A DNA stretch of 64,000 nt from positions 23,925-87,924 of the forward strand of contig JAMCXB010000061.1 in NCBI GenBank assembly GCA_023480735.1. The letters are read 5' to 3'. The position numbers and the translations under genes are program-made. Below the pieces are notes generated by a model. That model saw nothing but the letters and a program-made list of their open reading frames with translations, had not been told where the DNA came from and made no database searches. Of the stretch, positions 646-39,227 are shown one piece after another; position 1 is the first letter of the stretch; every line of letters begins with the position of its first letter. This DNA is from Bacteroidota bacterium. Its GTDB lineage: Bacteria > Bacteroidota > Ignavibacteria > Kryptoniales > JAKASW01.

Positions 646-3017
646 TTTAGAGAAAACAATTCATTTGAAACATGGTCATGATTTTCTGCAATTGTAGCAT
701 TGAAGGATACGATTGTGAAACGCGCATCGCTGGTCGTACCTCCGGCAACCAATCCCAAGGCCAGAGTACCCTTCTGTCCGAGGCTCAGATCGGGATAAGA
801 TGACCTCAAGTGGTTCATTATTCGCAAGCTCATCGGGGGATAAACCATCAAGGCGAGTTTGTAATCCAATGTGCCATCAAATCCATGCCACCCTTCCAGC
901 CTGAAATCGAACGGCGTCCCGTACGCAATGAGCTTGTTGAAGTATACTCTCCCGTCGGTAATATCAACTGAAAGGGAAGCATTTGATACTTCCACTGAAT
1001 CCTTACCTGAATCCCCGAGAAAATCGTAAAGTCTATCGAGAACCGAATAGTGTCTTACGGAAGCCCCCTTTATCTTCAATTGACCCCGGCCTCCGAGTGT
1101 CGCAAGGTCTACTTTGCCCGAATCATCGTAGACACCATTTAGTGCAAGCGTGCCGCTTCCGCTTCCTCCGACTATATCCACTTTTCCAAGATACCTGTCG
1201 GCCAGTCTGCCGAAGTTATTTGTAGCTATCCTGGTCTTTATGCTGAAAGTCGTTCTGCCTTCCTGACTGTAGTCCGTCCATCCTGAAACAAGAAAACTTC
1301 CCGCCGACGAGGTATAACTAAGCTTGTTCAATTTAACGAAGTAGTCAAGCAGCTTTAGATTACCTGTCACCTTCGTAAGTGTGTCTGTCGGCAGAATACA
1401 TTTAGCGATATTGAAGTCCAGCGCCACGTTAGCTGACGGCAGCCAGGCGAGAGACTGCCTGCCCAGGTTAAGGTTCAGGTGCGGGAGTAATCCGATGGTA
1501 CTGAAAGTCTTCGAAAGCACATTGATTCTCAATGACGGCATCAATCCCTTGTCTCCAAGGAGAATCCCCTGATAATTGGTGAAGGCTCCTGTCAGCACCA
1601 TATCGGAGGCACCCAGCCTGACGAGCAAATTCTTGAAGGATGCGCGGTTGTTCACTATAGAGACTCTCCCGTTGAATTCACCTGTGTAGAGAGTATCAAT
1701 TCCGATGGGTAGCTGTACGAGTGCGTTGTCAAAAGTCACGAGTCCGTCTGCTCTGACGCTGTTGATGGAAGGACTGTAGTTAAAATCATATTTAGCCTGA
1801 ATTGTGCCTGAAAACCTGTCTATGTCCGGAATCTGCAAACTGTGAGCAAGTTTCTTCAAGTTAAGGTCGACCAATACCTTAGCCGTGGCAAATTTCGGGG
1901 GGACAAGACCGAATTTGAATGAAGCAACGTTATCCCCGAGAACCACCCTTGGTACCGATACATCTAATTCAGACGAACCATCTTTCAGTTTGTAGCTGCC
2001 CGAGAGATCTTTCACAAGCAGAGAATCGCCGGACTTCAGTTTAGCCTTGAAATTCGTCAAGCGAACTTGTGCGTCAACACTTGTGCTTTGGCCGCGTCGT
2101 TGATACTGAAACATGAGTGCAAACTTTCCCTGTACCGACTTCTCTGGAATCACATTCTGCAAGAATGCGGGAAGCAGGTTGTAGACTCCTTGGGCGGACG
2201 AATCGACGTTCACAGCGTAGATGCTTACCTCAGACCTCGGATAGAACAGAAGGGAGACCGAGGTTTTGACTTTGATCCCAAAAACGGAAGCATGGTCCGA
2301 TTCGATATGAACGAAGTCGTGACGCTTATCGTAGTCAAGCTTAGCTGCCAGGTCAACTGTGCTTCCGTGGAAAAGCTCCGAATTATCCTTCCACAGTTCT
2401 AAGCTGCCTATTCTGAGCTGTGAATTGAGAAGGAGCTTATCTTCTTCTACGACAGTTTTTATTCTCGAAGTGAAGTCCACATTCAAGAATTTCACAGACA
2501 CCCCGGTCTTGCTGTTGTACCATATGATATTTCCGTTCGACACTTCAAAATTAGAGAGAAGCAGGCTGGAGAGGGAACCTCTCACGTTTTTCCCATCGGC
2601 GTAAAAAGAATCACTGAAGAGCTGGTCCGTGTTCAGCTTCCCCTTCGCGTTTTGTTCGATGTATAATACCGGTGAGTAGAAGATGACATTATTTATTTCG
2701 AGACGATTTTTAAGGAGGGGTAGGATTTTCGCGTCGATCATCACGGCTTTCGCATCGAGGAGGTACGGACTGTCGTATTTCCCCAGGTCGGGGTTCGAGA
2801 CACGCAGGCCGGTAATCCTGATACCGATGGTTGGAAAGAATGATAGCTCAACCTGCTCAGCCGACACGTCCCTGTTCAGAAGCTGGCTGATCTTTGGAAG
2901 TACAAGGGCAGTCAGCCTGTCGCTACTGAATATCACTTTCGAGAGAATTATTGCCAAAATGATAATTACCCCTACAACCGACGCAACGGCCTTAATCAGT
3001 CTCGTACTCTTTCTCAT
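642..3017 (-). CDS. AsmA-like family membrane-anchored protein
   Basis: ORF with N-terminal TM (MRKSTRLIKAVASVVGVIIILAIILSKVIF) and AsmA-type repeats (LLNRDVSAEQVELSFFPTIGIRITGLRVSNPDLG; C-terminal GYLDYKLALMVYP-like region). Start moved from 3242 to ATG at 3017. Overlaps the rsmA start by 4 bp. Confidence 0.75.
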   Translation of the reverse strand: MRKSTRLIKAVASVVGVIIILAIILSKVIFSSDRLTALVLPKISQLLNRDVSAEQVELSFFPTIGIRITGLRVSNPDLGKYDSPYLLDAKAVMIDAKILPLLKNRLEINNVIFYSPVLYIEQNAKGKLNTDQLFSDSFYADGKNVRGSLSSLLLSNFEVSNGNIIWYNSKTGVSVKFLNVDFTSRIKTVVEEDKLLLNSQLRIGSLELWKDNSELFHGSTVDLAAKLDYDKRHDFVHIESDHASVFGIKVKTSVSLLFYPRSEVSIYAVNVDSSAQGVYNLLPAFLQNVIPEKSVQGKFALMFQYQRRGQSTSVDAQVRLTNFKAKLKSGDSLLVKDLSGSYKLKDGSSELDVSVPRVVLGDNVASFKFGLVPPKFATAKVLVDLNLKKLAHSLQIPDIDRFSGTIQAKYDFNYSPSINSVRADGLVTFDNALVQLPIGIDTLYTGEFNGRVSIVNNRASFKNLLVRLGASDMVLTGAFTNYQGILLGDKGLMPSLRINVLSKTFSTIGLLPHLNLNLGRQSLAWLPSANVALDFNIAKCILPTDTLTKVTGNLKLLDYFVKLNKLSYTSSAGSFLVSGWTDYSQEGRTTFSIKTRIATNNFGRLADRYLGKVDIVGGSGSGTLALNGVYDDSGKVDLATLGGRGQLKIKGASVRHYSVLDRLYDFLGDSGKDSVEVSNASLSVDITDGRVYFNKLIAYGTPFDFRLEGWHGFDGTLDYKLALMVYPPMSLRIMNHLRSSYPDLSLGQKGTLALGLVAGGTTSDARFTIVSFNATIAENHDHVSNELFSLK

Positions 3018-3069
3018 CGTTGAAAATATAGGTTTTATAGCGCCTATTTTCAATTTGTGAATAAATGAA

Positions 3070-3762
3070 GTGCACGGTATTGGTGATTGGAAAAATTTGC
3101 GTTCGACCTTATTTTTAGGTGTGTTAATTGCATTTGAAGGAATTGATGGAAGCGGCAAGACAACCCAGGCAGAACTTCTCTCTAAAAGACTCGCCGGGGA
3201 GGGAATTGATAATGAAGTCCTGCGAGAGCCCGGAGGCACCAAACTTGGTGAAGGGGTGCGAGAACTATTGCTTCACAGGACAGACCTCAAGATCAACCCA
3301 GCCACGGAATTCCTCCTCTTTAGTGCAAGCAGAGCCCAGCTTGTCCGAGAGAAGATAATTCCTCTTTTGGAGCAGGATAAGATTGTAATCCTGGATCGAT
3401 ATTTTTACTCTTCGATAGCATATCAGGGATTCGGAAGAGGGATTCCGATTGAGGAGATCGAGACCGTGAGCAAGTTTGCCACACAGAATGTCGTTCCGGA
3501 TATTGTCTTTCTAGTGGATCTGAATATCGAGACCGCCTTGCAGAGAAGAATGGCGGCTGGTCGTGGCGCAGACCGGATGGAGAATTCCGAAGTAAGATTT
3601 TTCGAAAGCGCGATCGGCGGCTTCTCCTATTGTGCCAAAAAGGAACCATCTCGCTTTGTAATCGTCGATGGAAGAGAGCCTGCCCAAAGAATCTCAGACA
3701 AGGTTTTTGATGTTGTTATGTGTAGAATAAAAAAGGTAGCGGAGGAAGGAAATGCGCCGTAA
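3070..3762 (+). CDS. tmk: thymidylate kinase (start may be GTG 3121)
   Basis: P-loop LIAFEGIDGSGKTTQAELL, LREPGGTKLGEGVRELLL, DRYFYSSIAYQGFGRG. Confidence 0.93.
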   Translation: MHGIGDWKNLRSTLFLGVLIAFEGIDGSGKTTQAELLSKRLAGEGIDNEVLREPGGTKLGEGVRELLLHRTDLKINPATEFLLFSASRAQLVREKIIPLLEQDKIVILDRYFYSSIAYQGFGRGIPIEEIETVSKFATQNVVPDIVFLVDLNIETALQRRMAAGRGADRMENSEVRFFESAIGGFSYCAKKEPSRFVIVDGREPAQRISDKVFDVVMCRIKKVAEEGNAP

Positions 3763-5401
3763 AGTTTTCATAGTTTTGACAGTTTTGCTGATAGGAACGA
3801 GTATAGGATTCATCGCCATACAGAATACCGACAGTTTCTACCAGGTCAGACGTAGTGTAGATATTTTTGGCACTGTTTTTAAGGATGTTGTTCAGGATTA
3901 TGTCGACCCCGTTCCCCCGGAGCAGCTGGTAAGGAAGGGGATCAATGCAATGCTTGCTTCGCTCGACCCCTACACTGTCTACATGGACAGAGAGAACAGC
4001 GGTGAGATCGATCTGTTGACGACGGGGAAATATGGCGGAATAGGCGTTTCCATAGGAGTCGCCGACGGAAAAGTGATCATTACCGGTGTCTTTGACGGAT
4101 ACAGTGCCCAAAGGCAAGGGTTGAGAATTGGGGACCAGATCCTAAAAATAGACACGACCGACGTTTCAAATATGAAGATTGATGACATTAGCAACATGGT
4201 ACGGGGAGAACCCGGTTCTCAGGTGACGCTTACTATCAAACGCGAGGGAGAAGAAAAGCCGTTCAAGGTTGTCCTTGTCCGCGCCGAGGTAAGGCTGAAA
4301 GCGGTATCCTACTACGGAATAGTTGATTCGAACATCGGTTTTATCAAGCTCGACCAGTTCTCGAGAGGTTCGGACCAGGAAGTCAAGGACGCTTTGATGG
4401 ACCTGATGTCGCGCACCGATTTGAAGGGAATAATACTTGATCTCCGAAATAATCCCGGCGGCCTGCTCGAGTCCGCCGTGGGCATCGCCGAGCTCTTCGT
4501 GCCGAAAGGAAGCTTGATCGTCATGACAAAGGGGCGTGATCCGTCTTCAGACAGGAAGTACATATCCGATCAGGGCCCAATCGCTCCCAATATTCCGATG
4601 GCGGTACTGGTAAACGGAAACAGCGCGAGTGCAAGCGAAATCGTCACGGGTGCCTTGCAGGACTTAGACAGGGCAATTGTGGTAGGCACGACTACTTTCG
4701 GAAAGGGACTCGTTCAGACAATACTCCCGATCGACCAGAACGCGCAGCTCAAAATCACGACGGCAAAGTATTATACACCCAGCGGCAGATGCATTCAGAA
4801 GATAAGTTACTCGCGACTCCGTGAGGGAGAAAACGACATCACGCCCGATAGTCTGCGCAAGGAATTCCACACACTCGACGGGCGTCCTGTCTTCGAAGCC
4901 GGGGGAATCACACCTGACTCAACCGTAAGGTCGGAGAAGTTTTCCAATTATGTAATCCAGCTGATGCGGGGTGGATACTTCTTCAATTTTGCAACTCAAT
5001 TCCGCTCGGAGAACGATTCGATACCTGCTCATTTTACTGCCGGATCGAAGGCCCTGGAGAAGTTTAAGAGTTTCATCGATAAGAATAATTTCACTTACAT
5101 GTCTCGTCTGGCCCAAGTACTCGGCGATGCACATAATCTAGCCTCATCTTCGAATTACGATGAGTCCATTGACAAGGAAATAGTCTCTGTAGCAGATCAA
5201 GTGAGAACTTACGAAAGAGGGCTGTTTGAAAAGGACTCAAAACAGATTTCAGAATTGTTGACGAGCGAGATCATAGGAAGATTTGGAGGGAACTCAGCAC
5301 AGGTAAGATCCTCCCTTCGATACGATGAGCAAACCCAAGTCGCCGAGTCAATTCTCCACGACCGTCCTCTCTACATGCGGATTCTCGGGTTGATTCATTG
5401 A
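3752..5401 (+). CDS. S41 family carboxy-terminal processing peptidase (PDZ domain)
   Basis: Signal/TM N-terminus, PDZ (GVSIGVADGKVIITGVFDGYSAQRQGLRIGDQILKID), catalytic NGNSASASEIVTGALQD and TFGKGLVQT. Confidence 0.93.
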   Translation: MRRKVFIVLTVLLIGTSIGFIAIQNTDSFYQVRRSVDIFGTVFKDVVQDYVDPVPPEQLVRKGINAMLASLDPYTVYMDRENSGEIDLLTTGKYGGIGVSIGVADGKVIITGVFDGYSAQRQGLRIGDQILKIDTTDVSNMKIDDISNMVRGEPGSQVTLTIKREGEEKPFKVVLVRAEVRLKAVSYYGIVDSNIGFIKLDQFSRGSDQEVKDALMDLMSRTDLKGIILDLRNNPGGLLESAVGIAELFVPKGSLIVMTKGRDPSSDRKYISDQGPIAPNIPMAVLVNGNSASASEIVTGALQDLDRAIVVGTTTFGKGLVQTILPIDQNAQLKITTAKYYTPSGRCIQKISYSRLREGENDITPDSLRKEFHTLDGRPVFEAGGITPDSTVRSEKFSNYVIQLMRGGYFFNFATQFRSENDSIPAHFTAGSKALEKFKSFIDKNNFTYMSRLAQVLGDAHNLASSSNYDESIDKEIVSVADQVRTYERGLFEKDSKQISELLTSEIIGRFGGNSAQVRSSLRYDEQTQVAESILHDRPLYMRILGLIH

Positions 5402-5456
5402 TTGTGCCGTGTGTAAGGCTTAAATTTTACGAAAATTACGAAGGAAATATCATAAA

Positions 5457-6608
5457 ATGTCTGACCCTAATCCTGCAATAACCGAAACCTCTTCGTTTTC
5501 AAGAGGCTTGGAAGGTATCGTAGCCGGACAGTCTTCAATATGTTACATAGATGGCCGGAAGGGCCAGCTTGTTTACCGCGGAATAAGCATAGATGAGCTT
5601 GCTACCGAAGCAACATTTGAGGAGATCGTATACTTGCTGTGGCACGGTTTGCTGCCTAAGAAGGACGAACTCGCAAAGCTTCAGAAGGAACTCTCTGTGA
5701 ACCGCGGGCTTCCCGACCAGTTAATATCACTCATGAAATCTGTCCCGAAAAATTCAAGTCCAATGGATATTCTCAGAACGGCAGTTTCGTTTCTCGGCAT
5801 CTACGACGAAGAAGCTAAGGACAATTCCATAGAGGCGAACTGGAGAAAATCTATCAGACTGGTTGCAAAGCTTCCCACAATCGTGGCCAATTTCCATACT
5901 CTGCGCCAGAACGGCGATTATATCAAGCCCGATTCTTCACTCGGTCAGGCGGCAAATTTCCTGTACATGATAAACGGCGTTGAACCGGGAGAGACAGCTT
6001 CGAGAACTTTCGATTGCGCACTGGTACTCCATGCCGACCACGAGTTTAATGCCTCAACCTTCTCGGCAAGGGTTACTGCCGCAACGTTGTCGGATATCTA
6101 TTCGGCGATGACCTCTGCGGTCGGCACTCTGAAGGGACCCCTGCACGGAGGGGCAAACGAGGAAGTCATGGATATGCTCCTCAAGATCAAGACTCTCAAT
6201 AACATCGAAGCATATCTGCAGAAGTTGTTTTCCCAGAAGAAGAAGGTGCCCGGCTTCGGTCACCGGGTCTATAAGGTCGAAGATCCGAGGGCAAAGCACC
6301 TTAGGAACTTTTCCAAGAAGCTCGGCGAAACGATAGGGAATCTCAAGTGGTACCAAATGTCTGAAAAGATTGCGGAATATGTGAAGAAAGAAAAGAGCCT
6401 GGTACCTAACGTGGACTTCTATTCAGCGTCTACTTACTACTATCTGGGAATACCCATCGACCTCTTCACGCCGATATTCGCCATGAGCAGGGTAGCAGGT
6501 TGGACCGCTCATGTCATGGAACAGTATTCCGACAATCGTCTCATTAGGCCGGTTTCGGAGTACATAGGCCCGCGCGAAGTACATTTCGTACCCATTGAGA
6601 ATAGATAG
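5457..6608 (+). CDS. citrate synthase
   Basis: GQLVYRGISIDELA, LHADHEFNASTFSARV, GPLHGGANEEVM, PGFGHRVYKVEDPRA, YYYLGIPIDLFTPIFAMSRVAGWTAHVMEQ. Confidence 0.95.
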   Translation: MSDPNPAITETSSFSRGLEGIVAGQSSICYIDGRKGQLVYRGISIDELATEATFEEIVYLLWHGLLPKKDELAKLQKELSVNRGLPDQLISLMKSVPKNSSPMDILRTAVSFLGIYDEEAKDNSIEANWRKSIRLVAKLPTIVANFHTLRQNGDYIKPDSSLGQAANFLYMINGVEPGETASRTFDCALVLHADHEFNASTFSARVTAATLSDIYSAMTSAVGTLKGPLHGGANEEVMDMLLKIKTLNNIEAYLQKLFSQKKKVPGFGHRVYKVEDPRAKHLRNFSKKLGETIGNLKWYQMSEKIAEYVKKEKSLVPNVDFYSASTYYYLGIPIDLFTPIFAMSRVAGWTAHVMEQYSDNRLIRPVSEYIGPREVHFVPIENR

Positions 6609-6738
6609 TTGTAAAACAACACTTCGACCCTTATCCGGGTCATTATCCAATGTGATTGGGTTGGTGTGCAGATAAAAATGTGATTGCTGTTGTTCAATCA
6701 ACGTGTAAATTCTCGCTTTTGAGAAGAAAAAGAATCAG

Positions 6739-7197
6739 ATGCACCGGGAGTCTTGTCCGTTTTGCAGGATAATAGAGGGCTATGCGGATGCCGAGATCTT
6801 ATTTGAAGGTCCGGATAGTGTCGCGTTCCTTGACATCAATCCCATCAACTTCGGGCATGCGCTCGTGGTGTCCAGAGAGCACTATAGCAATTTTCTGGAG
6901 CTTCCGGACATGGTTTTGAACGATCTTACAAATACTTTGAGAATAGTCTCCAGAGCAATTATCGATTCGGTACGGCCGGCCGGTTTTAACATTTTCAACA
7001 ACAATGGCTTAGCAGCGGGTCAATCGGTCTTTCATTTCCATTTTCACATAGCGCCGAGATATGACGGAGACGGCTTGAAGATTAGACCTCACGTGAAAGT
7101 TTATGAATCCCCTGAGCACATGGCAGAGTACGCGAAAAAGATTCGCGATAAAATAAAAGTTAACTACAAATCAGGAGAACAGAATGAATCCTTATGA
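6739..7197 (+). CDS. HIT family nucleotide hydrolase/transferase
   Basis: [32 protein letters not shown] motif [13 protein letters not shown]. Confidence 0.93.
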
Positions 7198-29827: not shown

Positions 29828-32800
29828 ATGATTACGAGACCAACAGACTCGAATCACTTGAAAAGCCTAATTCGGAATGTTCTTCTCCTGTCGCTGGGAG
29901 CGGTAATATTCTGTCTTGGAAACATATCAGCTTCACAGGCCGCTCAAAGCAATGACACTACCGACATTATGCACAACATAAAGTTCCGAAACATTGGACC
30001 TGCTGCCGCAGGCGGCAGAGTGACCTCCGTACTCGGCATACCGGGTCAGCCGAACATTTACTATGTGGGCAGCGCAGGCGGTGGCGTCTTCAAGACCACG
30101 GACGGTGGAATCTCGTGGAAGAACATCTTCAAGAACGAACCGTCGCTGTCGATCGGCGCAATGGCTATCGCTCCTTCCAATTCTAACTACATCTGGATTG
30201 GAACCGGGGAGGCAAATCTCCGAAATGACATAATAACGGGGAAGGGCATTTTCTTTTCTCCGGACGCGGGGAAGACGTGGCAATATATGGGCCTGAAGGA
30301 TGTCGGGCAGATATCTCGAATCGCCATCAATCCTTCCGATCCGAACAACGTCTTCGTTGCCGCAATAGGACATGCATGGGCACCGAATCCGGAGCGCGGC
30401 ATATTTCGTACGACCGATGGCGGCAAGACCTGGGAGAAGGTTCTTTTCGTCAATGATACGACAGGAGCGTCCGACCTGGTAATGGATCCTGGAAATCCCA
30501 AGGTTCTCTTTGCCGCTATGTGGCAGGCAGTCCGTCATCCGTGGGCTCTTGACGACGGTGGACCGGGAAGCGGCATATACCGAACGACCGACGGTGGAAC
30601 AACCTGGAAGAAACTCACCAAGGGTCTGCCGAAAGGCCCGCTGGGACGCATCGCTCTGGCCGCCGCACCCAGCAACCCGAATCGTATTTACGCACTCATA
30701 GAATCTAAAACAGGCATGCTCTGGGATTCCGATGACCTCGGCGACCACTGGACTATGGTGACCAACAATCACGAGCTGGACGTTAGGCCCTTTTATTTTT
30801 CAAGGGTCGTTGTCTCTCCGGACAACCAGGATGAACTCTACTTCATGTCTTTTCTCATAACGAAATCCACCGATGGCGGCAAGACCGTCAAGAGTATTAA
30901 CGGAGGCGTTCATGTCGACCACCACGATCTCTGGATAGATCCAAAGGATCCCGACCGGATGATAGACGGGAATGACGGCGGCGCTTACGTAACTGTTGAC
31001 GGTGGGAAGACGTGGCGTTTCCTGAATAATCTCCCGGTCGAGGAGTTCTACCAGGTTGCGGTCGATGACAGTCATCCGTTCAATATCGGCGGCGGACTGC
31101 AGGACAATAACGCCTGGTACGGTGTATCAACGAACTTATACGGATCCGGAGTCACCGGCCAGGACTGGTTCCCGGTTGCGGGCGGCGACGGGCAGTACGT
31201 TGTGCCCGCTCCCAGCGATCCGGACATCGTTTATGCCGAAGCGCAGAACGGTTGGATGAAGAGACTCAATCTCAAAACAGGGCTCTGGCAATATGTACGT
31301 CCCTACATGTGGGATGCTCCTGATATGCCTCCCTCGAAGCTTAAATACAGGTTTAATTGGACGACACCTATAGCGGTGTCCTACACCAATCCAAACGAGG
31401 TTTTCGTCGGGGCAAACGTTCTGTTCAAGACATTTGACGGCGGAATGCACTGGACGGTGATCAGTCCGGATCTGACCAGGAACGACAAGTCAAAACAGCG
31501 TCCAAGCGGCGGCGACATAAATCTCGATATAAGCGGCGCAGAGAACTTCGACACGATACTTTCCATAGGAATTTCATCGCTTGATTCCAACGTGATATGG
31601 GTCGGAACGGACGACGGACTCGTACAGGTAACACGGGACGGCGGCAAGCACTGGGAAGATGCAGCAAGAAACATCCCGCACCTTCCGGAATGGGGACGTA
31701 TCTACCAAATTGAACCTTCTCCATTTAACCCCGGTTCCTGCTACATCTCCGTCGGCTTCCATGAACTCGACGACAACAAGCCATACGTCTTCAAGACGGA
31801 TAATTACGGTAAATCATGGACTTCTATTACCGGCAATCTGCCCGAGGGGTACCCAGTTCATGTAGTCAGGGAAGACCCGAACATGCGCGGTTTCCTGGTG
31901 GCTGGGACGGATAACGGGTTGTTCTTCTCTCGAAACGACGGAAGGGACTGGGAAAGGCTGAAAAGTAATTTCCCGACTGTTTGCGTGTACGATCTCAAGT
32001 TCGTGAAATCGAACCACGATCTCGTCGTCGCAACACACGGACGCGGTATCTTCGTACTTGATAACATCACGCCGCTCGAAGAATTCAACAACGGCATAAG
32101 AGACCAACAATTCCATTTGTTCAGCACTTTGCCTGCGTACATGTACCACATTTGGAATCGTGACGCTTTCAACGACCTCAGCACTTATTCCGCCCCAAAC
32201 GCCCCAATGGGAGCGATGGTCGACTACTATCTCAAAGATACTGTGAGCACAACTCCAGAAGAAAAGAAGGAGCACGAGACTCCTGTGAAGATTGTGATAA
32301 CCGACCAGGCAGGAAATCAAGTAGCCACTGTGTATGGACCCGCTAAAAAGGGGTTCAACAGATACGTATGGAACATGCGGTACCAGAGCCCGGGAATCCT
32401 GAAAATAGACAAGAAAAAAGCCGCGAAGAAAAATCCGTATTCTACTGGCGGACCGATGGTTACGCCGGGGACCTACGATATAGCTGTAATATTTGACGGC
32501 CATACTGCGGACACGCATGTAAAATTAAGTCCGGATCCCAGACTCAAGGTCCCCTCGGATTATTTCACATCTAATTTGAAAGCTGGTCTGGCTGCGAGGA
32601 ATGGCTCTACCGCACTGAACGAGATGATGAACCGGATCCAAAATATCGAGAATCAGATGACTACCATCAAGCAATCTCTGGCCACCGACAAACAAGGAAT
32701 GAAAGACGGAAAGTACAAGCCAGTTCTCGACGGCATGTCGGCTCTCGGCAAGAAACTGACATCGCTCAAAGACACGCTTTACACCAAGTCCGTGCAGCAC

Positions 32801-33064
32801 GATGTCGGTGAGGATAATATACATGATTTCACTCATTTTCACTCACGCCTCACCGGTTTGTTGTACAACTTCATGGCTCCGTACGACGGAGTACCCACTG
32901 AAGTCGTCATCCACCACACAAACCAGCTCGAGCAGCTACTTGGAGTGTATCTTGGCCAGTTCAACGATATCTTGACCAGCGACATTCCTGCGTTCAACAG
33001 TGTCGCGCAGAAAGCCGGGACGCCCACGATCTTTGGCGGGCCGACGATAGAAGTGGGAAAATAA
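29828..33064 (+). CDS. Secreted BNR/sortilin-like beta-propeller glycosyl-hydrolase-like protein
   Basis: Signal peptide; repeats FKTTDGGISWKNI, FRTTDGGKTWEKV, YRTTDGGTTWKKL, VTVDGGKTWRFL, VTRDGGKHWEDA, FKTDNYGKSWTSI; ATHGRGIFVLD; C-terminal helical region. Start moved to ATG 29828. Confidence 0.88.
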   Translation: MITRPTDSNHLKSLIRNVLLLSLGAVIFCLGNISASQAAQSNDTTDIMHNIKFRNIGPAAAGGRVTSVLGIPGQPNIYYVGSAGGGVFKTTDGGISWKNIFKNEPSLSIGAMAIAPSNSNYIWIGTGEANLRNDIITGKGIFFSPDAGKTWQYMGLKDVGQISRIAINPSDPNNVFVAAIGHAWAPNPERGIFRTTDGGKTWEKVLFVNDTTGASDLVMDPGNPKVLFAAMWQAVRHPWALDDGGPGSGIYRTTDGGTTWKKLTKGLPKGPLGRIALAAAPSNPNRIYALIESKTGMLWDSDDLGDHWTMVTNNHELDVRPFYFSRVVVSPDNQDELYFMSFLITKSTDGGKTVKSINGGVHVDHHDLWIDPKDPDRMIDGNDGGAYVTVDGGKTWRFLNNLPVEEFYQVAVDDSHPFNIGGGLQDNNAWYGVSTNLYGSGVTGQDWFPVAGGDGQYVVPAPSDPDIVYAEAQNGWMKRLNLKTGLWQYVRPYMWDAPDMPPSKLKYRFNWTTPIAVSYTNPNEVFVGANVLFKTFDGGMHWTVISPDLTRNDKSKQRPSGGDINLDISGAENFDTILSIGISSLDSNVIWVGTDDGLVQVTRDGGKHWEDAARNIPHLPEWGRIYQIEPSPFNPGSCYISVGFHELDDNKPYVFKTDNYGKSWTSITGNLPEGYPVHVVREDPNMRGFLVAGTDNGLFFSRNDGRDWERLKSNFPTVCVYDLKFVKSNHDLVVATHGRGIFVLDNITPLEEFNNGIRDQQFHLFSTLPAYMYHIWNRDAFNDLSTYSAPNAPMGAMVDYYLKDTVSTTPEEKKEHETPVKIVITDQAGNQVATVYGPAKKGFNRYVWNMRYQSPGILKIDKKKAAKKNPYSTGGPMVTPGTYDIAVIFDGHTADTHVKLSPDPRLKVPSDYFTSNLKAGLAARNGSTALNEMMNRIQNIENQMTTIKQSLATDKQGMKDGKYKPVLDGMSALGKKLTSLKDTLYTKSVQHDVGEDNIHDFTHFHSRLTGLLYNFMAPYDGVPTEVVIHHTNQLEQLLGVYLGQFNDILTSDIPAFNSVAQKAGTPTIFGGPTIEVGK

Positions 33065-33401
33065 GACTGTCAGCGTTCAGTGTATTAGGAAGTGGCGGAG
33101 GAAAGAGCGAAGCTCCGCCACTCAACTATCCATCAACACTTTCGCGGCAGATGATTCCGTTACAGAATCTATGTTATGTTACCTTGTGATTCCTTTCCTT
33201 TTCCCCATCCGACCGACACGAGACAGACATAAACAACGTGGATGCACGACAGCATGAGCTTTAAGTTAACAATGTGTCCAATAACGGTTCGTGAACTACA
33301 ATAGGAAGAACCTTCTGGAAACTCTTGTATGAGCTTGCGATAAACTGCAGCAGCAGAATCGATTTGCATTAGCCTCTCGAAGTATATAAATTCTTTTGTC
33401 C

Positions 33402-33486
33402 GTTAGGGGTGCTGCTCCGGGACGATCGGAGCGGCTGAGAAAAAACCCTACGAACCTGATCTGGGTAATACCAGCGTGTGTGCTTT
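33402..33486 (+). ncRNA. TPP (THI-box) riboswitch
   Basis: TTAGGGGTGC-[GCTCCGGGACGATCGGAGC hairpin]-GGCTGAGA-AAAAACCCTAC-GAACCTGATCTGGGTAATACCAGCG, the canonical THI-box core. Confidence 0.95.
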
Positions 33487-33495
33487 TGGCGCGCA

Positions 33496-33528
33496 TCCCG
33501 CGGTTCTCTTTGAGATAGTTCCGCGGGA
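33496..33528 (+). promoter_or_regulatory. Candidate riboswitch expression-platform hairpin
   Basis: TCCCGCGG-T-TCTC-TTT-GAGA-TAGTT-CCGCGGGA; its 3' arm abuts GGGAGAGG and ATG 33536. Confidence 0.55.
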
Positions 33529-33633
33529 GAGGAAAATGGACGAGGCTTCTTCATTTTGCCGTTTCTATTTCTGACTGCTGGGTACTTGGATGCAGTTGGA
33601 ATCCGAAACGGTTTATTTTTTTATGGAGAAGCT

Positions 33634-36144
33634 ATGAAGACTAAAGTTACTATGATCGCTCTTTTCCTTTGTTTTCTCGGTACTACTTGGGCCCAACAGA
33701 AATTCACGTTAAGGGGTGTCGTCCTCGATTCCACAGAGAATTCAAGGATATCTTACGTCGAAATACATTTAGATGAGGCAAAAATCACGGCAGAAACTGA
33801 TGCTGATGGCAAATTTGAAATTTCAGGACTAGACAGAGGGACCTACGTACTGAGGGTGAATGCTTCTGGTTACGACCCCGAAAGCGTAAGCGTTCAGGTC
33901 CCGAGCCAAGAACTGACTATCTATTTGAACAGAAAGACCTACAGGCTCCAACCAATATTGGTAACTGCGCAAATCGCCCAGAGCCGTAAGACGCCCGTGA
34001 CATTCAGCAATCTTTCTCAAAAGACAATACATGAACAATACGCAATTCAGGACGTTCCCGTGATATTGTCGCAGTTGCCGTCGATAACTGAATACTCCGA
34101 GAACGGCGAAGGAATAGGCTATTCTTACATCACGATGCGCGGCTTCGACCAGCGGAGAATCTCAATCATGGTCGACGGAATCCCTCAGAACGATCCAGAG
34201 GATCACAACGTTTACTGGATCGATATGCCCGATTTGCAGGCAAGTACCGGAACGATCCAGGTACAGCGCGGAGCCGGTACGGAGTTCTACGGTCCGCCGG
34301 CAATCGGTGGTTCAATCAACATCGAGACCACAAATCTGGCAAACCAGAGAAAGTTGAACGTTACGTTTGGTGCCGGATCAACCGGTTCACCCAACGGGAT
34401 TGCGCAGAGATACTCGACGACGTTCAGTTCAGGACTGGTCGGCGGCAAGTACTCTTTCTATGCTCATATGGCAAAAAGCCTGACAACGGGCTACAGACAG
34501 GATTCCTGGGTTAACCTTAACAGCTACTTCCTAAGCGCTACCAGGTATGATGAAAAGGCAACTACTGAGATTGACATATATGGAGGGCCCATCTCGGACG
34601 GACTATCATACTTAGGTCTGCCAAAATTCGCGGCACTAGATAAGAACCTCCGGACCTTGAACTGGGACGACTGGAACAGCGATAGCAACATGGTGAACTA
34701 CTCGCCCCACATGACAAGGTTCATCTCTAGCAACGGACTCGACACCGTGTACGCGGTTCCGAGAAGAAATACTGAGATTGAAAACTTTTCGCAGCCTCAT
34801 TTTTCCGTTATGAACGAATGGGAGGTATCTCCCGTCGTTACACTGAATAATTCAGTCTTTGCCATCTACGGCTCTGGCTTCTATAATTACGACGGCTCCT
34901 GGGCCGACACCAGCTATTTCAGGATAACTTCTCAATACGGATTCAACCCGACACAAAATCCCAGCGATGCTCTCATCCACGCTTATGTCGGCCTTCAACA
35001 GTACGGCTGGCTTCCCCGCGTCACGATCCGCCATCAGAATGGCACACTGGTTCTAGGAGCCGAGTTGGATCGCAACTACTCCGACCACTGGGCCACCATC
35101 GACTGGGCCAACAATCTCCCGGCAGGCGTTTCCTCGGATTACCGATACAATCAGTGGCACGCGAGGACAGATGTCGCCACCGCTTACGGTCACGAGTTGT
35201 ACAGCATAAATCCGCGTACTACTCTTATGCTCGATCTCGAATACGAGTTCAAGCAGTACAAATTCTACGGCGAGAAATTTGTCGGGACGCAGTTCATTGT
35301 TCCCTATCATTTTCTCAATCCGAGAATCGGGATCAACTATAACTTTTCCCATACTTCGAACGCGTACCTTAGTGTAAGCCAGACTTCCCGCGAACCTCAA
35401 CTTGCTAGCATATACAATGCCGACGAGTCGAGCGGAGGAGAGACTCCGAACTTCGCCTTGAACGCAAACGGCACGTACAACTTCGGAGAGCCTCTCATCA
35501 AGCCGGAGACTCTCGACGATTATGAATTCGGTTACCATTACAACAACGGCCGGCTAACCTTCGGCCTTACGGCTTATTGGATGGAATTTTACAATGAGCT
35601 GGTTTCGAACGGCCTCCTGGATCAGTACGGGCAGCCGATCACTGGAAACGCAAAGCGGACCCGTCATGTTGGACTAGAGTTGGAAGCCAATGCAATCATC
35701 ACAAATAACTTTGCCCTCTACGGTAACATATCAGTCAGCAGGAACAAGCTTATCGAGTATACGAGTTACATCGATACGACCGGAAACACGATTGCCAATG
35801 GTATATCGCTAGATGGTAACACATTGGGCGGCTTCCCTGAACTGCTCGGCAACATACGGGCAACATACGCAACGGACAATTTCTCCGCCGTACTGCTCGG
35901 CCAGTATGTCGGGTCCCAGTACACAGACAACTTCCAGTTGGCTTCCCGTGAGATCAGCCCGTATTTTATCGTGAACGGCTGGCTCTCCTACCGGATCCGT
36001 GATTTCCTTTCGCTCTCATCGGTCGACTTTAAGCTGTACGTTAATAACCTATTGAACCGGCTTTACATTGCACACGGCGAAGGTATTTACTTCTACCCCG
36101 CGGCGACCAGGAATTTCTTCATCACCTGCTCAGTTGACCTCTGA
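33634..36144 (+). CDS. TonB-dependent outer-membrane receptor (predicted thiamin/TPP uptake)
   Basis: Signal peptide MKTKVTMIALFLCFLGTTWAQ; CarboxypepD_reg-like domain (TLRGVVLDSTENSRISYVEI); plug (DVPVILSQLPSITEYSENGEGIGYSYITMRGFDQRRISIMVDGIPQNDPEDHNVYW); beta-barrel C-terminus. Downstream of the TPP riboswitch. Confidence 0.92.
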   Translation: MKTKVTMIALFLCFLGTTWAQQKFTLRGVVLDSTENSRISYVEIHLDEAKITAETDADGKFEISGLDRGTYVLRVNASGYDPESVSVQVPSQELTIYLNRKTYRLQPILVTAQIAQSRKTPVTFSNLSQKTIHEQYAIQDVPVILSQLPSITEYSENGEGIGYSYITMRGFDQRRISIMVDGIPQNDPEDHNVYWIDMPDLQASTGTIQVQRGAGTEFYGPPAIGGSINIETTNLANQRKLNVTFGAGSTGSPNGIAQRYSTTFSSGLVGGKYSFYAHMAKSLTTGYRQDSWVNLNSYFLSATRYDEKATTEIDIYGGPISDGLSYLGLPKFAALDKNLRTLNWDDWNSDSNMVNYSPHMTRFISSNGLDTVYAVPRRNTEIENFSQPHFSVMNEWEVSPVVTLNNSVFAIYGSGFYNYDGSWADTSYFRITSQYGFNPTQNPSDALIHAYVGLQQYGWLPRVTIRHQNGTLVLGAELDRNYSDHWATIDWANNLPAGVSSDYRYNQWHARTDVATAYGHELYSINPRTTLMLDLEYEFKQYKFYGEKFVGTQFIVPYHFLNPRIGINYNFSHTSNAYLSVSQTSREPQLASIYNADESSGGETPNFALNANGTYNFGEPLIKPETLDDYEFGYHYNNGRLTFGLTAYWMEFYNELVSNGLLDQYGQPITGNAKRTRHVGLELEANAIITNNFALYGNISVSRNKLIEYTSYIDTTGNTIANGISLDGNTLGGFPELLGNIRATYATDNFSAVLLGQYVGSQYTDNFQLASREISPYFIVNGWLSYRIRDFLSLSSVDFKLYVNNLLNRLYIAHGEGIYFYPAATRNFFITCSVDL

Positions 36145-36148
36145 TAGT

Positions 36149-36775
36149 ATGAAATTTGAAAACGCCGTTTTGCTTATTTGTAACGGAGTCCCTCCTTCGC
36201 GCGAGAGACTCCGTACCCTGCTGCCGAACCCTGCCAAGGTTGTGTGTGCGGACGGCGGTGCAAACAAAGCCAGGTCGATCGGCCTGGAACCTGATTTGAT
36301 TGTCGGCGACCTGGATTCATTGGACCAATCAGACGGCGGTTTCCGGAAAGCAGAAATCGTGAGAATACCTTCACAGGATAATACTGACTTCGAGAAGACA
36401 TTGGACCTCCTCCTTGAAAGAGGTGTGAATGATTTGCTCATAACCTCGTTTTCAGGCGGCAGAATTGATCAAACGCTTGCGAACATTCAGATAGCCTACG
36501 AATACTCAAAGAGATGCAATCTGGCGCTCGCAGACGATGAGTACCTGATCATTCCGGTTACAAACAAACTTGTAGAACATGTCCGAACTGGGACGCTGAT
36601 ATCTTTGCTGCCAATGGAGGATGCAACGCTCGTGAGCACGAAAGGATTGGCTTACGAGTTGAATCACAGCAAGATTCCTAAAGGTGGCCACGGAATCAGC
36701 AATCGTGCAGTTACAGAAGAGATGGAGATCAACGTGCACCGCGGCGGCGTACTGGTCTTCGTGAAAGACATATGA
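36149..36775 (+). CDS. thiamine pyrophosphokinase
   Basis: VVCADGGANKARSIGLEPDLIVGDLDSLDQ, IPSQDNTDFEKTLDLLLERG, SGGRIDQTLANIQ. Start moved to ATG 36149. Confidence 0.93.
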   Translation: MKFENAVLLICNGVPPSRERLRTLLPNPAKVVCADGGANKARSIGLEPDLIVGDLDSLDQSDGGFRKAEIVRIPSQDNTDFEKTLDLLLERGVNDLLITSFSGGRIDQTLANIQIAYEYSKRCNLALADDEYLIIPVTNKLVEHVRTGTLISLLPMEDATLVSTKGLAYELNHSKIPKGGHGISNRAVTEEMEINVHRGGVLVFVKDI

Positions 36776-38232
36776 CCGTTACATTTTCTCCGGCCGATTG
36801 GGCCATCGTAATTGTGTACTTTGCTTCCGTGGTTTTCGTGGGTTTCCGTGCAGCACGCCGGGCTCGCGGTCCCATAGACGAATACCTGGTCGCCGGAAGG
36901 ACGTTGACACTGCCGATATTCGTGGCCACCCTGGTGTCGACATGGTACGGTGGGATACTTGGTGTCGGTGAATTCTCATACAAGTATGGCATTTCCAACT
37001 GGTTTATTTTCGGCGTGCCGTACTACATCTTCGCAGTCATCTTTGCAATCTTCCTTGCACCGCGAGTTCACAAAACCAAATTGCATACCATTCCCGACAA
37101 ACTCAGGGAGACTTACGGCGAAGCAACTGCTAGAATGGGCTCGTTCATAACGCTCCTCATTGTTACTCCTGCACCCTACGTCCTAATGGTAGGTATACTC
37201 GTGCAGATGTTGTCCGGATGGAGTCTCACCGTATCTGTCATCTTTACAACCCTCGTATCGATAGCGTACCTGTACGCTGGAGGACTGCACTCCGACGTTC
37301 GGACAAACAGCCTAGAATTCATTTTGATGTACATCGGTTTCGGCGTGATGCTCCCCTATTGCTACATTCACTACGGTGGTTTGTCATTCATCGAATCTCA
37401 CGTGCCGGCAGGTCACCTGACAATTACAGGCGGCAATTCGTGGCAGTATATCATCGCATGGTTTTTCATCGCGAGTCTCACGCTCATCGATCCCGCTTTC
37501 CATCAGAGATGCTATGCGGCGAAATCGGGAGCGGTTGCAAGATATGGCATTCTGGTCTCAACTATCTTCTGGCTGTTCTTTGATTTCATGACTTCTACCA
37601 CAGGCCTGTATGCACGCGCTATTCTGCCTCATCTCAGCAACCCAACAATGTCTTATCCCGCCCTCGCTGAGGTCGTGCTGCCGAGCTTCCTGAAGGGATT
37701 ATTCTATGTCGGCATGCTTGCCAGCATCATGGCTAGCCTTGAGAGTCTTACTTTCATCTCTGCGGTCACTATAGGGAAAGATATACTCTTTAGTTTCTTC
37801 CACAGGAACGATTCCGCTGCAGACGCGAAATCGAGAATCCTGAGATATTCACATGTCGGCATACTTGTGACCGCCGGAATCTCCGTTGCAATTGCGTTGC
37901 TTATACCTTCGGTAATCCAAATCTGGTATGATCTCGGGGCTGTCTTCATACCCGGATTGTTAATTCCGCTTATTTCCAGCTATTACCCAAAACTACAGGT
38001 GTCGCCTCGGTATGTTTTCCTTTCCATGACTTCAGGCTGGGTCACTTCCCTGCTGTGGCTTTTGTCGGGATTGGTCGGACATGGGACATCGAATTCGACT
38101 TATCTCTTCAACATCCAACCCATGTATCCAGGACTGTTTCTTTCCGCGGTCTTCTACACGGTTGGATTTGCAAAAAAGCCGAGAGAGGTGTCTGAAGTCA
38201 GTAGTGCTTCAAGCGTTGCCGGGGAAAAGTAA
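36772..38232 (+). CDS. sodium:solute symporter (SSS) family transporter, candidate thiamin or precursor transporter
   Basis: Multi-TM; FRAARRARGPIDEYLVAGRTLTLPIFVATLVSTWYGGILGVGEFSYKYG; LPSFLKGLFYVGMLASIMASLESL. 4-bp overlap with thiamine pyrophosphokinase. Confidence 0.87.
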   Translation: MTVTFSPADWAIVIVYFASVVFVGFRAARRARGPIDEYLVAGRTLTLPIFVATLVSTWYGGILGVGEFSYKYGISNWFIFGVPYYIFAVIFAIFLAPRVHKTKLHTIPDKLRETYGEATARMGSFITLLIVTPAPYVLMVGILVQMLSGWSLTVSVIFTTLVSIAYLYAGGLHSDVRTNSLEFILMYIGFGVMLPYCYIHYGGLSFIESHVPAGHLTITGGNSWQYIIAWFFIASLTLIDPAFHQRCYAAKSGAVARYGILVSTIFWLFFDFMTSTTGLYARAILPHLSNPTMSYPALAEVVLPSFLKGLFYVGMLASIMASLESLTFISAVTIGKDILFSFFHRNDSAADAKSRILRYSHVGILVTAGISVAIALLIPSVIQIWYDLGAVFIPGLLIPLISSYYPKLQVSPRYVFLSMTSGWVTSLLWLLSGLVGHGTSNSTYLFNIQPMYPGLFLSAVFYTVGFAKKPREVSEVSSASSVAGEK

Positions 38233-38248: not shown

Positions 38249-38878
38249 TCAGAACTTGACCCGGAGGTTCAATGCGACGGCGGTGCCGGCAGGCGTCGAG
38301 CTCAGATTAGGTGAGACTTCAAAACCGGAAAGTTCAGCATCGACATAGGCATCCACCATGGATAGCAAATACACTCCTGCCATGTACCACGCATAAGAGT
38401 CCCGTTGGTCTCTGTATGAATCCCGAAGACCCATCAAATTCAAATTACCATATGGAGAAGAAGAGCTAATCGAATTCGAATACTGTGTGCGATAGTACTC
38501 ATAGCTTTTGTTGTTGGAGAGCCATTGTGAAACGAAGAATGCCTGTGCCCCGATAATGATCGGTACCTTCCAGTAACTGCCGTTATAGATCTGACCGCCC
38601 CCTGGAATTGCAGCAGACAGCAAGACTGCTATAAGCGGTGACTTAAGCTTCGACCTGACCGCCTCCGTATCAACAGCTTGACCAATTGCACTTTTGCTCG
38701 AATCAACGAGGTGACTTTGAAATCCCAACCCTTGTCTGAGAGTCATTAGAGCAAAATCTGCTTTCGGTTGTGATGACGTCTGGGCTTGGATTCCAAGCGG
38801 GGTCAGCAACGTGACAAGAATAAAAACCGCTACCTTCCTTCCCACGGCATGTCGTTCACTTGTATGCAATAATATCAA
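38249..38878 (-). CDS. DUF5683-like membrane protein
   Basis: PLIAVLLSAAIPGGGQIYNGSYWKVPIIIGAQAFFVSQW and SYAWYMAGVYLLSMVDAYVDAEL pattern. Confidence 0.75.
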   Translation of the reverse strand: MILLHTSERHAVGRKVAVFILVTLLTPLGIQAQTSSQPKADFALMTLRQGLGFQSHLVDSSKSAIGQAVDTEAVRSKLKSPLIAVLLSAAIPGGGQIYNGSYWKVPIIIGAQAFFVSQWLSNNKSYEYYRTQYSNSISSSSPYGNLNLMGLRDSYRDQRDSYAWYMAGVYLLSMVDAYVDAELSGFEVSPNLSSTPAGTAVALNLRVKF

Positions 38879-39227
38879 CTTCTACCAATGCATTGCGTGG
38901 GAGCGAGGACACTTCTATGGTAGTCCGGGCGGGAGGATTTTCTTTAAAGTACTCGGCGTATATCTTATTGAATTCGGCAAAGTCGCTCATGTTCTTCAAG
39001 TAAATGGTAGACTTGATAACATTTGAAAGAGTACACCCTCCGGCTTCCAGGACAGCAGCAATATTTCTCAGAACCTGATGTGTTTGCTCGACCAATCCTT
39101 CAGCTAGTTCACCCGTCTCGGGGCCGAGGCCAATCTGTCCGGAAAGAAACAATAAACCGTCTATCTCTACGCCCTGTGAGTATGGTCCGATCGGCTGTGG
39201 TGCGCTCTTCGTGTTCAGAATCCCCAT
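38856..39227 (-). CDS. RidA family reactive intermediate/imine deaminase
   Basis: MGILNTKSAPQPIGPYSQGVEIDGLLFLSGQIGLGPETGEL...NPPARTTIEVSSLPRNALVEVDIIAYK. Confidence 0.95.
   Translation of the reverse strand: MGILNTKSAPQPIGPYSQGVEIDGLLFLSGQIGLGPETGELAEGLVEQTHQVLRNIAAVLEAGGCTLSNVIKSTIYLKNMSDFAEFNKIYAEYFKENPPARTTIEVSSLPRNALVEVDIIAYK

Follow-up and report, generated by a model that had tools for sequence, protein, structure and literature searches.

Organization of the locus

On the forward strand of the window, by which the whole analysed stretch of 64,000 nucleotides is meant, a TPP riboswitch, a TonB receptor, a thiamine pyrophosphokinase and a sodium:solute symporter follow one another as an apparent single operon. 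The TonB-dependent outer-membrane receptor (33634..36144, +, 836 aa; PF00593, PF07715, PF13715) has a carboxypeptidase-regulatory-like domain at its N-terminus, and both the Plug (PF07715) and the beta-barrel (PF00593) domain exceed the cut-off. Its reading frame starts at TTG 33556; ATG 33634 is the likely start codon, since it is served by the Shine–Dalgarno sequence GGAGAAG and a stretch that looks hydrophobic and signal-peptide-like begins there. Receptor identity was 66–89% among congeners and 38–42% to Ignavibacteria and Calditrichota.

The thiamine pyrophosphokinase (36149..36775, +, 208 aa) scored 154 bits against the TIGR01378 equivalog model (cut-off 76.4), with both kinase Pfam domains present (PF04263, PF04265) and 2omk as the nearest solved chain (E 1.1e-15). 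The third gene (36772..38232, +) encodes a 486-aa sodium:solute symporter (SSS/SSF; PF00474), ThiV-like by context. The spacing described in an earlier note on this DNA was reproduced: the kinase ATG (36149) is placed 4 bp past the receptor stop codon (TGA, 36142–36144), and the symporter ATG (36772) shares 4 bp (ATGA) with the kinase stop. Directly 5′ of the operon, a sortilin/Vps10-type BNR-repeat gene (window 29831–33064) is found in much of the genus and is missing beside the operon loci of the outgroups; on the 3′ side, convergent genes for a DUF5683 protein and RidA (window 38249–39227) are kept across the genus.

The TPP aptamer

The whole aptamer was placed at 33398..33541 (+) using the RF00059 match, our own model R1 and an alignment with uninserted relatives. 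The Rfam match proper, at 33405–33480 (+), reached 43.7 bits (E 1.5e-7; E 3e-7 when searched genome-wide), which is below the RF00059 gathering score of 54.3 bits, so that a default Rfam scan shows no match at this leader. A search with model R1 gave 56.3 bits, the match beginning at 33398. A chance match is excluded, since congeners without the insert described below score 64–71 bits with RF00059 at the equivalent position, 5′ of the same receptor.

The core motifs GGGGTG (33406–33411), GGCTGAGA (33433–33440), CCTGATCTGG (33455–33464) and CCAGCG (33471–33476) are the same as those of the congeners. P1 is formed by GTCCGTT (33398–33404) with AATGGAC (33535–33541) and closes only beyond the insert; the P4 3′ strand falls inside 33530–33541. 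The element thus shares its core motifs and P1, P2, P3 and P5 with the RF00059 aptamer and differs from it by two hairpins that follow the P5/P4 junction and precede the P4 3′ strand, whereas the optional stem of the class named in the consulted part of PMC2258182 is P3a, which lies elsewhere. The earlier note had called the element a canonical THI-box; the THI-box stands, and "canonical" applies to the core motifs alone, two hairpins being inserted. Judged by motifs and helices, the RNA is a TPP riboswitch aptamer, for which binding of TPP is predicted.

A two-hairpin insert in the aptamer

The insert (33477..33529, +; 53 nt) lies between CCAGCG and the P4 3′ strand and consists of hairpin A (33477–33495, +), which has a triloop, and the variable hairpin B (33496–33528, +). 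It is present in four species (that of the window, G027, G022 and G026) and missing in nine congeners, where the aptamer reads CCAGCG-(T/G)AGGAAAATGGAC, with P1 likewise formed by GTCCGTT and AATGGAC; in the insert-bearing species, 35–53 nt separate CCAGCG from AGGAAAATGGAC. These four score only 41–45 bits with RF00059, which is unique to them within the order and is accounted for by the inserted hairpins. Degeneration of the aptamer was considered as the cause of the low score and rejected, as the alignment with relatives shows an insertion instead.

Compared with dinucleotide shuffles, the insert of the four species folds with z-scores of −4.3, −2.7, −3.1 and −2.9. In the three diverged sequences, hairpin A is closed by TGTGTGCT/GGCGCGCA, TGGCGCA/TGCGCTA and GACACT/GGTGTC, and hairpin B by TCCCGCGG/CCGCGGGA, CCCGA/TCGGG and TCCGCC/GGCGGA; pairing is retained although the majority of the helix letters have changed, and every pair stands save one across the four species. 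With four species and helices matched by structure, this appears to be good but not strong covariation. Outside P3, the aptamer core of the four is nearly letter-identical.

It is unlikely that the hairpins broke the aptamer and left the operon constitutive in this clade. The low Rfam scores confined to the four, together with the loss of a clear expression platform in two of them, would fit such a reading; however, P1 and the core motifs do not vary among the four, in contrast to the diverging insert sequence, and the inserted helices remain paired despite the sequence change, whereas a dead aptamer would be expected to decay. The CG preceding the insert is presumably part of the pyrophosphate-binding junction known from structures of the class, which would put the insert at the edge of the pocket. 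Most likely, the hairpins stack outside the ligand pocket and are an addition that the aptamer tolerates. In the consulted part of PMC2258182, variable insertions in riboswitches mostly form stem-loops and leave the core intact, and the present site is not listed as optional. It is highly improbable that, in one clade of a genus dependent on salvage, the insert makes a composite riboswitch, which would bind a second ligand or a protein, or whose specificity would have moved towards thiamin or TMP.

The same element was sought in 1.39 Mb of a genome with a low-scoring TPP match (G458) and not found there. Low-scoring TPP matches occur in several families of the class, among them f9 and f49, which include several genomes with systematically weak matches (E 1e-8 to 1e-5); these riboswitches score like the inserted aptamers and may carry insertions too. 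A literature search, which left subscription journals mostly outside its reach, returned no account of this insert.

Expression platform

The expression platform (33544..33633, +) comprises an anti-Shine–Dalgarno strand and an inner hairpin. The former (33544–33554) follows immediately past P1 and pairs with 33623–33633, which contains GGAGAAG, the ribosome site of ATG 33634; the duplex has −14.7 kcal/mol, equalled by none of 500 shuffles. The inner hairpin spans about 33558–33612 (CCGTTTC...GAAACGG) and is followed by TTTATTTTTTT; the leader as a whole folds with z −5.65. Among 13 congeners, the anti-Shine–Dalgarno pairing beats shuffles at p < 0.06 in nine, the exceptions being G022, G026, G031 and G032; significant pairing is thus lacking in two of the four insert-bearing species (p 0.44 and 0.37).

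In the sister family (f2) and in Melioribacter, the aptamer is followed by a plain intrinsic terminator (GCCGTTTTTCC...GGAAAAACGGCTTTTTT), the 5′ arm of which can alternatively pair with the 3′ half of the aptamer (CAGCG-AGGGAAACGG), with none of 300 shuffles as good. In the window, the corresponding antiterminator pairing is marginal over shuffles (fraction 0.06), and the hairpin of its genus, related to that terminator, lies inside the anti-Shine–Dalgarno/Shine–Dalgarno pairing. A terminator scan of the window returned none at the leader, the hairpin being missed because of the scan's loop limit of 8. These arrangements suggest that the window's genus uses translational control derived from transcription termination; by the logic of P1 closure, TPP would switch expression off.

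The symporter and its predicted substrate site

PF00474 matched the symporter with 94 bits (cut-off 22.8; E 1e-26). By sequence profile, its nearest solved relatives are the choline transporters sfCHT (E 6e-26) and CHT1 (E 2e-21), at about 18% identity (8j74, 9rws), and the AlphaFold model (pLDDT 88) has the SSS fold, with TM scores of 0.71–0.80 to CHT1, 0.75 to SiaT and 0.7–0.8 over SGLT, CHT1 and SiaT.

Choline in CHT1 is surrounded by W62, Y67, Y91, W141, W254 and W406 (PMC11589582). Three of these six cage aromatics are common to the symporter: W62 aligns with W58 (20 of 21 sequences), Y91 with Y84 and W406 with W385 (both 21 of 21). Unlike in CHT1 and sfCHT, two cage tryptophans are replaced, one of them by an invariantly acidic residue, as the position of W254 is D240 here and D or E in all 21 sequences. 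Thiamin is positively charged and contains an aminopyrimidine, which makes it plausible that the retained cage residues and the acidic group would suit a cationic aromatic substrate of this kind.

The symporter agrees with the description of ThiV as an SSS symporter in a TPP-riboswitch operon. Of the ThiV binding-site signature Tyr78, Asp139 and Phe254 (SiaT numbering), its invariant Tyr84 (TM2) and its Phe243, followed by His, Tyr or Phe (TM6), may be counterparts, but TM3 shows no conserved Asp. Thiamin is the predicted substrate, as opposed to HMP or a phosphate ester.

Conservation among relatives

With the symporter as query, 23 loci were retrieved. The order receptor–kinase–symporter is found in Kryptoniota-like, Ignavibacteria and Melioribacter loci and in one Calditrichota locus; four loci, three of them from Zixibacteria, have receptor and symporter without the kinase. 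A TPP riboswitch lies immediately 5′ in all loci covering that region except L016 and L022. The former, from Ignavibacteria, is a tight run of riboswitch, thiM, thiE, thiL, TonB receptor, kinase and symporter (1452–6958). The Caldithrix locus L022, with no receptor or riboswitch nearby, was rejected as an operon member and treated as a paralogue. The comparison suggested by the earlier note thus shows the three genes staying together across several phyla, with the riboswitch nearly always ahead.

Within the order, riboswitch and symporter orthologue are present in 19 of 20 genomes (the exception is 71% complete); the orthologue is 51–91% identical and lies 3.3–3.5 kb 3′ of the riboswitch throughout, with paralogues below 30%. 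Across the class, a TPP match was obtained in 283 of 294 genomes. No description of a receptor–kinase–SSS operon, including from Kryptonia and Ignavibacteria, came up in the literature search (subscription journals mostly outside it).

Thiamin metabolism in relatives and in this genome

PF04973 (PnuC/PnuT) was found in none of the 20 genomes of the order. Exactly one thiamine pyrophosphokinase, the operon copy, is present in 24 of 28 genomes checked; it is missing from the Caldithrix-type genome and from the three of Zixibacteria type. ThiC is missing in 19 of 21 genomes checked and present only in this genome and G006/G030, from which most members are predicted to be thiamin auxotrophs. ThiE, too, is missing in nearly all relatives. 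ThiL is retained in congeners without ThiE (280–307 bits) and also in relatives without ThiC; Zixibacteria have ThiL and no thiamine pyrophosphokinase, for which uptake of TMP or an unseen thiamin kinase are options.

The question of auxotrophy raised in the earlier note received a divided answer, as most relatives lack ThiC and this genome is not an obvious auxotroph. Its contig C23 carries a TPP riboswitch–thiS-thiC-thiD-thiE-thiG-thiH operon (L027, 3194–8819), whose riboswitch, the second of this genome, scores 76 bits. The genes thiS, thiC, thiE and thiH are above their family cut-offs, thiD is below its own, and thiG was called from position and sequence only; ThiL was also found in this genome. 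A TenI/ThiE-like gene lies on the opposite strand at this operon.

The ThiC of C23 has its nearest relatives (78%) in another class of the phylum, and the tetranucleotide correlation of the contig (0.60) lies near the bottom of the range seen within the genome itself (0.47–0.88). In the sister species G027, sequences matching the two ends of C23 (99%) occur in the same order at a single locus, separated there by just some 2.3 kb that include an integron integrase. This integrase (L065, 5221–6111) scored 408 bits with TIGR02249, and a stretch of C23 (L027, 9841–10334) is about 66% identical to it and may be a remnant. A repeat of 113 bp whose ends are inverted (CCTCACT...AGTGAGG; L027, 9554–9666) recurs at more than 10 further places in this genome and at many in G027, with 91–100% identity. 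Contamination was considered for C23; the shared repeat and the matching of both ends to the G027 locus count against it. The contig, which may be mis-binned, was treated as belonging to the lineage. As hardly any congener has ThiC, thiSCDEGH is probably acquired biosynthesis in a salvage-dependent genus.

Proposed function and alternatives

The operon very probably serves TPP-repressed uptake and activation of thiamin. The earlier note had proposed a complete salvage route from the outer membrane to TPP with the usual permease replaced; the kept gene order, the riboswitch, the sole kinase, the lack of PF04973 and the ThiC-poor relatives agree with it and support it well, with the reservations that SSS carriers of this type are already known (ThiV, DUR31) and that the substrate is a predicted one. 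At low cytoplasmic TPP, the leader would leave the receptor's ribosome site open or, in the sister lineages, prevent the intrinsic terminator. The TonB receptor would then bring thiamin, possibly its phosphates too, over the outer membrane, the SSS symporter would carry thiamin over the inner membrane with sodium, in the place of PnuT, and the pyrophosphokinase would convert it to TPP in one step and so trap it. TPP on the aptamer would close P1, the anti-Shine–Dalgarno strand would pair with the ribosome site, and expression would drop.

The operon would be compatible with uptake of HMP or TMP too, because ThiL is retained without ThiE and Zixibacteria have receptor and symporter without the pyrophosphokinase. 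We consider it quite unlikely that thiamin phosphates (TMP/TPP) are imported via the receptor, that a further step, in the periplasm or the cytoplasm, precedes or follows passage through the symporter, and that ThiL completes TPP. The ThiL of ThiE-less congeners and the Zixibacteria set of receptor, symporter and ThiL would suit this route, but it would make the operon kinase superfluous in most lineages, an undetected thiamin kinase explains the Zixibacteria just as well, and we know of no SSS carrier of phosphate esters. Import chiefly of the precursor HMP rather than intact thiamin is very unlikely; it has been proposed for the SAR11 protein ThiV, which is an SSS symporter with a TPP riboswitch and the likely HMP carrier there (PMC11452348). 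One Ignavibacteria relative (L016), with thiM and thiE in the operon and ThiC absent, would fit it; against it, the operon kinase acts on intact thiamin, HMP alone is useless to relatives nearly all of which lack ThiE, and the CHT1-like cage residues indicate a cation, which HMP is not.

Among the closest known systems is the TPP riboswitch-controlled OMthi-pnuT-tnr3 of Bacteroides, a single operon in most gut Bacteroidetes (PMC5613172). Both follow one logic, in which a TPP riboswitch goes with a TonB receptor, a carrier in the inner membrane and an enzyme of the thiamine pyrophosphokinase type; the carrier there is PnuT of the PnuC family, and here it is an SSS symporter. In Bacteroides thetaiotaomicron, pnuT and OMthi transcripts beside TPP riboswitches were little altered by thiamine (PMC5613172), so that a riboswitch need not imply strong control.

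ThiV, found under TPP riboswitches in SAR11 and others, resembles the symporter in family (SSS, PanF-like) and context (TPP riboswitch 5′); unlike here, no TonB receptor and kinase appear alongside in the descriptions consulted (PMC11452348, PMC2211319, PMC6593275), and it is assigned to HMP in SAR11, whereas the window symporter would carry thiamin. DUR31 of Candida, an SSS thiamin transporter supported by gene deletion, with a TPP riboswitch in an intron (PMC5997356), is likewise an SSS-family thiamin carrier (putatively so in the window) under TPP control, but belongs to a eukaryote with splicing control and no outer membrane.

Implications

TPP-controlled operons of TonB receptor, PnuT and kinase (Bacteroides) and SSS carriers with TPP riboswitches (ThiV, DUR31) are already known; the receptor–kinase–SSS operon is real and well conserved. 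TPP riboswitches can bear additional helices at a position where the consulted account of the class names no optional stem, and the standard cut-off overlooks such riboswitches because the extra helices lower the score. The gene order receptor–kinase–symporter provides annotators with a recognition mark. For Kryptoniota, Ignavibacteria, Calditrichota and Zixibacteria, in which thiamin synthesis is mostly missing and PnuT is missing where checked, the operon predicts a widespread carrier that would couple thiamin uptake to sodium.
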